From contig JAJRQT010000181.1 in the NCBI GenBank assembly GCA_024280115.1, positions 1-64,000 on the forward strand: DNA of 64,000 nt, read 5' to 3'. The notes under the pieces are model-generated. The model was not told the origin of the DNA. It was given only the letters and a program-made list of their open reading frames with translations, and did no database searches. Every line of letters begins with the position of its first letter. Position 1 is the stretch's first letter. The DNA is from Bacteroidota bacterium (lineage in GTDB: Bacteria; Bacteroidota; Bacteroidia; Cytophagales; Cyclobacteriaceae). A program made the position numbers and the translations under genes. Positions 2,786 through 28,584 of this stretch are shown here, in pieces.

Positions 2786-3871
2786 ATGGCAGTAAAAATT
2801 AGATTAGCGCGTCGAGGACGCAAAAAATTGGCAATGTACGACGTGATCGTAGCAGATGCCAGATCACCACGAGATGGTAGAATTATTGAAAAATTGGGTA
2901 CTTACAACCCTCTTACAAATCCGGCAACCATTGTGCTCAATGAAGATAAAGCACTTGATTGGTTGTTAAAAGGTGCTCAACCTACGAATACCGCAAGAAA
3001 AATTCTTTCTCATAAAGGAGTCATGCTAAAAAAGCACTTGCAGGTGGGTGTCTTGAAGGAGGCTATTACCCAGGAGCAAGCGGATAAGAAATTCGCTGAT
3101 TGGCTGAATACCAAGGAAGCTGAGATTTCAGGCAATATTGATTCTATTGCTAAGAAAAAGGCTGATGAAGCTAAAGCAAGATTAGAAGCTGAGCAAAAAG
3201 TCAATGAAGCTAAAGCTGAAGCATTGAAGAAGAAATTAGCTGCTTTGGTAGAGGAAGAAGCTGAAACTATTGAAGAACCTTCAGCTGAAGCACCAGTTGA
3301 AAAATCTCCGGTGGCTGAGCCAAAAGCTGAAGAGGCTAAGGTTGAAAAAGCTGAGCAAGAGGTCGTTGCCAAGGAAGTAAAAGCCGAGAAAAAAGTTGAA
3401 GAAGCAAAGACTGAAACCGCAGAGCCGGTAGCTGAAAAAGTAGATTCTCCTGTAGAAAAGGCTAAAGAAGTTGTGGAAACTCCGGAAGCTGAATCAAAGG
3501 TGGAGGTGGTTGAAGAACCGGTAGCAGAAAAGGTGGAGGAATCTCCAGTTGAGGAAGTGAAAACTGAGGAAACTCCTGCTGAAGAAGTAAAAGCTGAAGC
3601 TAAAGCCGAGGAAACAAAAACCGAAACAGTTGATGAACCGGTTGTTGAAAAAGAAGAGGTTCCTGAAGCAAAAGCTGAAGAAGTAAAGGAAGCTCCAGTC
3701 GCTGAATCAAAGGCTGAGGAAACCTCAACTGAAGAAGTGAAAATTGAGGAAAAAGCCGAAGCTACTGAAGAACCAGCAGCTGAAAAGGAAGAAGCTTCTG
3801 ATGAAGGAAAAAGGAAGAAGAGAAAAAATAATCTTTCTTTCCCATGCAGCTTGACGATTACTTTGAAATAG
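2786..3871 (+). CDS. rpsP: 30S ribosomal protein S16 with a very long Ala/Glu/Lys/Val tail
   Basis: Residues 1 to about 80 are a normal S16 ([13 protein letters not shown] start, then a [11 protein letters not shown] segment), a small-subunit assembly protein. The tail of roughly 270 residues is low-complexity and highly charged, built from repeated Ala-Glu-Glu, Val-Glu-Lys and Ala-Pro-Val-Ala-Glu units. Bacteroidota S16 proteins often carry a shorter extension. The final 17 residues change character and overlap rimM by 28 bases. One extra A in the A5 run at 3808-3812 would instead end the protein in Lys-Lys-Glu-Glu-Glu-Lys-Lys at TAA 3829-3831, 12 bases before rimM. The listed end is therefore probably an artefact or a recent mutation. 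First gene of rpsP-rimM-trmD. Confidence 0.9.
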
Positions 3872-4371
3872 GTTATTTACTCAAGCCTCATGGTCTTATA
3901 GGATTTATCAATTTTCAACTGGATGTTGATGATCCAAAAAAGTATAAAGGAATGGAATCAGTAATTGTCAAAATGGGCAATAATCTGGTTCCATTTTTAA
4001 TTTCCGCTTTAAAAATCAATGGCACAAAAGGCATTCTACATTTAGAGGGAATCAATTCTGTAGAAGACGCCGAAGAATTAAAATCATGTTCATTATTGCT
4101 TCCTTTGGAGCTGCTACCGAAACTCAGTGAAAATCAGTTTTATTACCATGAAGTGATCGGTTATAATATTGTTGATAAAGAAAACGGAACACTCGGAGTC
4201 ATTGAAAATGTATTTACCGGTGGAAACCAGGATCTGATTTCAATGAAATATAAGGAAAAAGAAGTGCTGATTCCTGTAACTGACGAAGTTGTAAAGAGTG
4301 CCGATCATGAGAAAAAGGTAGTTCATGTAAATATTCCTGAAGGATTGCTGGAAATATATCTCAACGAATGA
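3844..4371 (+). CDS. rimM: 16S rRNA processing / ribosome maturation factor
   Basis: Helps mature the head of the 30S subunit and binds S19. It has 175 residues with the usual two-part layout: an N-terminal barrel (about residues 5-85, with the [12 protein letters not shown] opening) and a C-terminal PRC barrel (about 95-170, with the [13 protein letters not shown] turn). It sits between rpsP and trmD, the standard partners. Its ATG lies 2 bases before the trmD start region ends (trmD begins 2 bases after the rimM stop), so the two are likely coupled. Overlap with rpsP depends on the suspected frameshift there. Confidence 0.95.
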
Positions 4372-4372
4372 T

Positions 4373-5050
4373 ATGCGAATCGACATCATAACATGTTTAC
4401 CTGATCTGCTCGAAAGCCCCTTCAATCATTCGATATTAAAAAGAGCACAGGAAAAAAAAATAATAGAGATCCATATCCACGATATACGTGATTATTCCAC
4501 GAGCAAACAAAGACAGGTGGATGACTATCAGTATGGTGGTGGAGCAGGAATGGTGTTGATGATAGAACCAATTGACCGGTGCATCACAAAACTTAAGTCA
4601 GAAAGGATATATGACGAAATCATATATCTCAGCCCGGACGGAGCATTACTCACCCAAAATATAGCCAATCAATTCTCGCTTAAAAAAAATCTGATCATGC
4701 TGTGTGGTCATTATAAGGGAGTTGACGAACGCGTGCGCAAGCATATAATTACTAAAGAGATAAGTATTGGGGATTATGTGCTGTCGGGCGGAGAGTTAGG
4801 TGCAGTAGTACTTTCTGACGCAATTATCAGGTTGATTCCCGGAGTACTTTCAGATGAGACGTCCGCGTTGAGCGATTCCTACCAGGATAACTTAATTGCT
4901 CCCCCTGTTTATACAAGACCTGCCGATTATAAAGGACAAAAAGTTCCTGAAATTTTACTTTCAGGACATGCTGCTAAAATCGAAGAATGGAGGCATACCC
5001 AATCCCTTAAAAGAACGAAAGAACGCAGGCCGGGACTTATTGATGATTAG
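4373..5050 (+). CDS. trmD: tRNA (guanine37-N1)-methyltransferase
   Basis: SPOUT methyltransferase that makes m1G37 in tRNAs reading CNN codons and prevents +1 frameshifting. The 225 residues have family length. Visible motifs are YGGGAGM (54-60), [10 protein letters not shown] (111-120) and the knotted S-adenosylmethionine loop [12 protein letters not shown] (133-144). It starts just after rimM. The last gene of the rpsP-rimM-trmD set is followed by a repeat-rich gap; rplS, which often follows, is absent here. Confidence 0.97.
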
Positions 5051-26626: not shown

Positions 26627-26891
26627 TGTACCCTCTATTATGCTAAGTTCAATAAATCAAATCAAGTTAATGAACATTGTTCATTATAACGGATATCTAG
26701 AAAAATGGATTTAGATAATAGCAATTAAACTTGATTCCGCCGTTTTATGGATGTTCATATTAGGAATATTATTTGACTCTTCAATATCTTTTTAATCCTG
26801 AATGAATTAGATTGGTCTTTTTTATTTAGTAAATTCAAATTGGCAATTCACGTTTACATTGAGACATCAATTGCATAGAACGTTTTTACAA

Positions 26892-27800
26892 ATGCGAATA
26901 AATTTGAGAATTAATAACATATTTATAATAATGGGAGGAGTGTTCTTACTTGGGTTTTATGCATTTTATTTATTCAATATATATCATTGGGATTATGTTG
27001 ATTCTGTATATCAGGTAGAATTCAATGAAGATTCCTATGACCTTAAGCATCCAAAAGAAAGATGGGATTTGCCTAAAGAGCTTGTGGAAATTTCCGGGCT
27101 TTCATTCTACAGAAAAAATCAATTAGCCTGTATTCAAGACGAGGATGGAATTTTTTATACTTATGATTTGAAGAAAAAGGATATAATCAGAAAAGACCAT
27201 TTTGGTGAAAAGGGAGATTACGAAGGTATTGAGGTAATAGCGGATACTGCTTACGTATTGAAAAGTAATGGGATTGTTTATTTCTTCCATCTGGAAAAAG
27301 AAGGCATTGGGGAAGTTAGTGCAATAAAAACAGATCTTAAAAAAGGGAATGACTCAGAAGGTTTAGGGTTTTATAAAGAATTTAAAGAATTGCTCATCGC
27401 CTGTAAAGAAGACCCCGGGACTAAAAAGAATGATATTAAAAAAGGCAGATCGGTTTACAGTATAGAATTGGCGGGGGAAAAATTCAAGAAGAAACCAAAA
27501 TATATCATTGATGGGAAATCCTACAATAAAATGCTTGAGGAGAAGGGATTGAGTAAGAAAAAACATAAGCCATTTAAGCCGAGTGGAATAGCTGTTCACC
27601 CGAAAAATAAATATATATTCATCATCGCATCTGTCGGCAAAATGATGGTTATTTTAAATCCGGGAGGTGAAATTGAAAATCTCATTCCATTGGACCCGAA
27701 AATTTTCTGGCAACCAGAAGGAATTTGTTTTAGCCCCAATGGTGATTTATATATATCTTCTGAAGGACGGGGTAAAAAAGGGTACATCCTTAAATTTTAA
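26892..27800 (+). CDS. SdiA-regulated-domain (YjiK-like) protein, membrane-anchored or exported
   Basis: The ATG at 26892 is preferred over an upstream TTG at 26859, giving about 302 residues. A hydrophobic segment (about residues 8-26) precedes a propeller-like domain of the SdiA-regulated family: VEISGLSFY, GDYEGIEVIADTAYVL, SEGLGFYKEFKELLIA, then KPSGIAVHPKNKYIFI and PEGICFSPNGDLYISSEG. The function of the family is not established; repeated EG and SG turns suggest a six-bladed propeller in the periplasm. It ends 10 bases before the PhzF gene. Confidence 0.85.
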   Translation: MRINLRINNIFIIMGGVFLLGFYAFYLFNIYHWDYVDSVYQVEFNEDSYDLKHPKERWDLPKELVEISGLSFYRKNQLACIQDEDGIFYTYDLKKKDIIRKDHFGEKGDYEGIEVIADTAYVLKSNGIVYFFHLEKEGIGEVSAIKTDLKKGNDSEGLGFYKEFKELLIACKEDPGTKKNDIKKGRSVYSIELAGEKFKKKPKYIIDGKSYNKMLEEKGLSKKKHKPFKPSGIAVHPKNKYIFIIASVGKMMVILNPGGEIENLIPLDPKIFWQPEGICFSPNGDLYISSEGRGKKGYILKF

Positions 27801-27810
27801 ATTTGAATCT

Positions 27811-28584
27811 ATGAAAATCTACCAGGTCGATGCATTTACGGATCATATTTTTGGCGGGAATCCTGCTTCAATTTGCCCTTTGGATAATTGGATTTCTAAA
27901 GGCAAAATGCAACAAATCGCTATGGAAAACAATTTGTCAGAAACGGCTTTTTTTGTTCAGGAGAACGGTTTGTTTCATATCAGGTGGTTTACTCCGGAAA
28001 TGGAAATTGATCTATGCGGACATGCCACGCTTGCTTCTGCTCATGTTATTTTCAATCATATGAATCATGGAAAAGATGTCATTAATTTTCAATATGGAGG
28101 AGGTAAACTTTCAGTGAAAAAAGACCATGATTTGCTATGTATGGATTTCCCTACGGTAATTTCTGAAAAGGCAGAAATCACTGATCAGGTTGTCTTGGGA
28201 TTAGGAAAGTATCCTGAAGAAGTTTATAAAGCAAGAGACTTGCTGGCTGTTTTTAAAACCGAAAAAGAAATTTTGGAGCTTAAACCAGATTTTAGTGCAA
28301 TGATGAATATTGAACATCTTGGAGTAATTGCAACCTCCCCCGGTGATCAGGTTGATTTTGTATCCAGGTTTTTTGCTCCAAGGGCAGGGATCAACGAAGA
28401 TCCGGTTACGGGTTCTGCGCATTGCATGCTCATACCATTTTGGGCAGACCGTTTAGGAAAGAATAAGTTGGAAGCGTTGCAATTGTCAAAACGTGTGGGG
28501 AAACTTTTCTGTGAATATAAAGGAGAACGAGTGGAAATATCTGGAAAAGCAGTTACCTATTTGGAAGGAGAAATCAAAAATTGA
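27811..28584 (+). CDS. PhzF-family isomerase/epimerase
   Basis: About 257 residues from the ATG at 27811; a longer in-frame reading upstream overlaps the preceding gene and is not needed. The start IYQVDAFTDHIFGGNPA and the catalytic Glu44 in NNLSETAFF are typical of the PhzF family. So are WFTPEMEIDLCGHATLASAHV and the late GINEDPVTGSAHCML. Relatives act in phenazine synthesis, but most bacterial copies are housekeeping isomerases of unknown substrate; no phenazine genes are nearby. Confidence 0.92.
   Translation: MKIYQVDAFTDHIFGGNPASICPLDNWISKGKMQQIAMENNLSETAFFVQENGLFHIRWFTPEMEIDLCGHATLASAHVIFNHMNHGKDVINFQYGGGKLSVKKDHDLLCMDFPTVISEKAEITDQVVLGLGKYPEEVYKARDLLAVFKTEKEILELKPDFSAMMNIEHLGVIATSPGDQVDFVSRFFAPRAGINEDPVTGSAHCMLIPFWADRLGKNKLEALQLSKRVGKLFCEYKGERVEISGKAVTYLEGEIKN

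Follow-up and report, generated by a model that had tools for sequence, protein, structure and literature searches.

The 3' end of rpsP in this Bacteroidota genome is most simply explained by an ordinary, recent loss of a single base, whether real in the organism or introduced by the assembly. This involves no new mechanism, and the end is unique among the assemblies examined. Comparison with related sequences gives good support to a one-base departure from the ancestral frame, which leaves the last ~20 codons of this rpsP out of frame. The features discussed below lie near the start of the window, that is, the whole 64,000-nucleotide stretch of DNA analyzed, and are as follows.

2786..3871, + strand: rpsP, encoding ribosomal protein bS16, whose C-terminal extension is long and rich in Ala/Glu/Lys (PF00886 match and ORF list).
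3806..3818, + strand: stretch holding the one-base loss, with its best place at 3806/3807 (pairwise alignments to the relatives L003 and L004, and multiple alignment).
3814..3832, + strand: what remains of the ancestral 3' end, which reads EEEKK-stop in its former frame; 19/19 bases are identical to L003.
3823..3829, + strand: A AAA AAT as now framed, a heptamer that resembles a slippery site only in its shape (read from the sequence).
3829-3831, + strand: TAA, the ancestral stop, which is no longer in frame and lies 12 bases before rimM (sequence and multiple alignment).
3844..4371, + strand: rimM, intact and with its start codon untouched (PRC_RimM and RimM domains over cut-off).
4373..5050, + strand: trmD, intact, the next gene of the operon (PF01746 match, 193.6 bits).

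The rpsP open reading frame, as listed for the window, encodes 361 aa and stops at a TAG. A profile search of the genome placed the PF00886 domain at 2810-2986, scoring 81.1 bits where the curated cut-off is 27; no other S16 match in the genome exceeded that cut-off, and the whole protein scored 78 bits. In its present frame the tail is basic/hydrophobic and overlaps rimM, whose ATG lies at 3844, by 28 bases. On re-reading the sequence, the positions given in the earlier note for the rpsP end, the A5 run (3808-3812), the TAA, the rimM start, and the 28-base overlap all proved correct. The gene is A/G-rich, low-complexity sequence with 16 runs of at least five A, and its extension carries an internal DNA repeat in which 3437-3506 resembles 3650-3719 (76% identity). 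A search of this assembly for a second rpsP, or for a variant of it from another strain, found none; the site itself and this internal tail repeat were the only matches. The downstream genes are well preserved, with rimM showing 64.7-69.1% and trmD 76-80% identity to the four same-genus copies. The gene order rpsP-rimM-trmD, assigned by Pfam in the window, recurs in these four relatives, and is essentially all that the stretches around rpsP have in common.

To compare S16 tails, we searched with residues 1-164 of the protein and obtained matches in 56/59 genomes, counting that of the window. The 30 best matching places were taken as loci L002-L031, and further loci were the best 80 of at least 544 candidates from named genomes, mostly Cytophagales and other Bacteroidota by title. 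Six other genomes of the same genus were available, of which G004 and G005 gave no S16 match and the other four supplied L003-L006. Of the 110 loci (L002-L111), all but L015, which a contig end truncates, were read to the stop, and these 109 yielded 106 distinct proteins including the window's (L032, for example, is a repeat of L005 with the same tail and a contig of equal length). The last 18 residues of the window's S16 contain seven of the residues FILMWYCHR and carry a net charge of +5, whereas the other 105 proteins have none (100 proteins) or one (5 proteins) of these residues and a net charge of -1 or below. The window's tail is thus the only odd one among 106 distinct complete tails, a break beyond what chance would give. 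L003-L006 end in EEEKK, KKEDKE, TEEEKK, and EEEEKK, respectively, of acidic/Lys character, with a TAA 12, 11, 11, and 10 bases before rimM. L003, which has the best E-value among the relatives and is 85% identical to the window's S16 over the first 110 residues, ends in frame as EEKKEEEKK-TAA. The tails of close relatives, which the earlier note had named as a check on its reading, bear out a one-base break: L003-L006 keep the other frame and its stop, as do all 105 other distinct tails. An acidic end kept in all 105 may hint at constraint, and total S16 length varies from 233 to 361 aa across the five same-genus copies.

The place of the missing base is best defined by L003, against which the window lacks one base at a single gap at 3806/3807, whichever of three gap settings is used; two further alignments, which score equally when gaps are cheap, retain this gap and add a compensating pair. 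Against L004, the printed equal alignments under stricter settings (4 of 9) put the gap at about 3808-3818 and need a second gap after the stop, while cheap gaps give 234 equal alignments with several gaps each, four of them printed. The alignment to L005 contains several gaps and offers no definite place for the missing base. The earlier note had proposed a one-base disruption within the A5 run; the one-base loss against the relatives' frame stands, but its placement does not, since the best gap to L003 is upstream of the run. With the best gap outside this homopolymer, the case for slippage at A5, whether by a polymerase or by a basecaller, is weaker.

We give roughly an even chance to a true deletion of one base, recent and private to this genome, at the end of rpsP and within the low-complexity extension of bS16. 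One base would have been lost recently near 3806, at the far end of the extension; ribosomes would now stop 28 bases inside rimM, leaving its start codon untouched, and the altered last ~20 residues would be tolerated because the S16 core and ~340 residues are unchanged. The variable S16 length within the genus, together with the internal repeat, also suggests that the extension tolerates change. The one-gap alignment to L003, the 19 identical bases just downstream, and the best gap place outside a homopolymer all count in favor of a natural mutation. Against it stand the acidic end kept by all 105 other tails and the condition of the old 3' end, which is undecayed (3814-3832 identical to L003) although the RimM protein is 65% identical to that of L003. 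An intact old end means that the loss is either very recent or an assembly error, and is what would be expected of a faulty assembly of cells in which the old end is still in use.

We rate at somewhat short of even the alternative that sequencing or assembly introduced an error into this draft genome, in which case the organism's rpsP would end like those of its relatives, 12 bases before rimM. The odd end is private to one assembly among those examined, the draft consists of 236 contigs, the former end survives unaltered together with its stop, and the A/G-rich sequence with its many A runs is of low complexity. Other observations weigh against an error: the best gap place lies outside any homopolymer, and the site is 3.8 kb inside a contig of 144,080 bases, so that a contig-end effect does not apply.

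The screen of the genome at large for further frameshifts drew on 659,331 bases of its own sequence, among them the window, and on 896,973 bases from relatives in the same genus. Among 120 homologous pairs (32,486 aligned residues; 65 distinct places, 68,654 bases), none had a frameshift-like break in this genome's DNA, which speaks against an error; the screen masks low-complexity sequence, did not flag rpsP itself, and does not reach sequence that is masked or terminal, as the rpsP end is. With the direction reversed, such a break appeared in one of 110 pairs, in G006, where the gene at L121:14328-15904 is interrupted relative to its intact homologue L182:367-1890. As a sensitivity control, one deletion was planted per place in three rounds, and 32, 39, and 46 of the 65 were detected (30/41, 34/40, and 44/47 for those more than 120 bases from both ends). 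The 19 to 33 of 65 planted deletions that were missed keep an error in play: indels are unlikely to pervade the assembly, but with detection so limited a low or moderate error rate stays compatible with the screen.

Terminal breaks were tallied separately. Of 652 ORFs of this genome, 76 have a relative at 50% or more, and 11 of the 76, including rpsP, have at least 10 unaligned C-terminal residues; judged by their listed tails, several of the 11 look like partial, antisense, or low-complexity matches. One ORF, L188:14170-15795, differs in its last 16 residues from its 55% relative L152:17776-19422. Split genes within the window were also considered, but a Pfam scan of nine ORFs lying at overlaps or in tandem matched 8/9, with neighbors belonging to different families, and so revealed no split gene. 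At 26859-28584 two ORFs, one SdiA-regulated/NHL-type and one of the PhzC-PhzF family, overlap by 134 bases as listed, probably because of the start codons that the list chose.

Programmed or regular -1 slippage, which would restore the ancestral stop in part of the products so that both tails are made, is very improbable. The A AAA AAT heptamer would let tRNA-Lys re-pair in the -1 frame, which then meets the TAA at once, and an AGGAAG lies 5 bases upstream. But the heptamer is present because the old end was AAA AAA TAA, as in L003 and L005, and selection for slipping need not be invoked. The A5 run reads A AAA AGG (3808-3814), where a -1 shift would leave the Arg-tRNA mismatched. Predicted folding is not clearly above that of shuffled sequences (z-scores of 0.29 for 3800-3880, -1.47 for 3830-3890, and 0.22 for 3780-3860), with 15/200 shuffles folding as well as 3830-3890, and 0/105 other tails have the arrangement. 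The dnaX-type signal comprises A AAA AAG, a Shine-Dalgarno (SD)-like element 10 nt upstream, and a wild-type hairpin 6 nt downstream (PMC11162774). The rpsP end resembles this site in its six-A run allowing Lys-tRNA re-pairing and in its SD-like AGGAAG; it differs from the signal as described there in codon (rpsP has A AAA AAT and lacks A AAA AAG) and in spacing (5, not 10), and has no hairpin clearly beyond chance and no conservation. The suggestion that slippage during expression yields two forms therefore gained no positive support, the heptamer being a by-product, the folds not clearly beyond shuffles, and conservation absent, and on these sequence comparisons programmed slippage at the rpsP end is unlikely. 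More doubtful still is a variant in which, through the fresh deletion, the AAA-AAA-TAA end would now function in slippage, giving two bS16 tails, the one stopping early and the other overlapping rimM, and tying RimM output to the slippage rate.

The last reading concerns the overlap itself. rimM was located in 107/110 loci (all but L015, L027, and L050), and in 104 of the 106 other placed loci, three repeats included, every available estimate puts it downstream of the rpsP stop; L081 and L091 each have two estimates, which disagree. Selection of the new overlap for coupling rimM translation to rpsP has in its favor the 28 bases and an intact rimM start, but we regard it as scarcely credible, because the four same-genus relatives space the genes by 10-12 bases, which would already be near enough for coupling, and none of the 106 loci has a clear overlap.

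Taken together, we place about half of our confidence in a natural mutation in a tolerant tail, somewhat less than half in a sequencing or assembly error, and very little in anything functional. The division between mutation and error is a judgement, which the sensitivity control left the same, and reads are needed to tell the two apart. Among the titles and abstract openings consulted, none described such an rpsP end. The 3' end of rpsP is best annotated here as a probable private indel and best left out of any argument for a gene overlap or a new S16 tail, and has little importance beyond annotation. If the loss is real, it would show that in this group the long bS16 extension can do without the acidic character of its far end.

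The window's protein shares with the extended bS16 proteins of Cytophagales and other Bacteroidota the core domain, the Ala/Glu/Lys-rich extension, and the rpsP-rimM-trmD order, and differs from them in the shifted frame of its last ~20 residues and in extending 28 bases into rimM. Private terminal frameshift indels in draft genomes are a common kind of event. The sequence comparison revealed no difference between the rpsP end and such indels, with which it shares a one-base net loss, a low-complexity 3' end, occurrence in a single genome, and intact downstream sequence.
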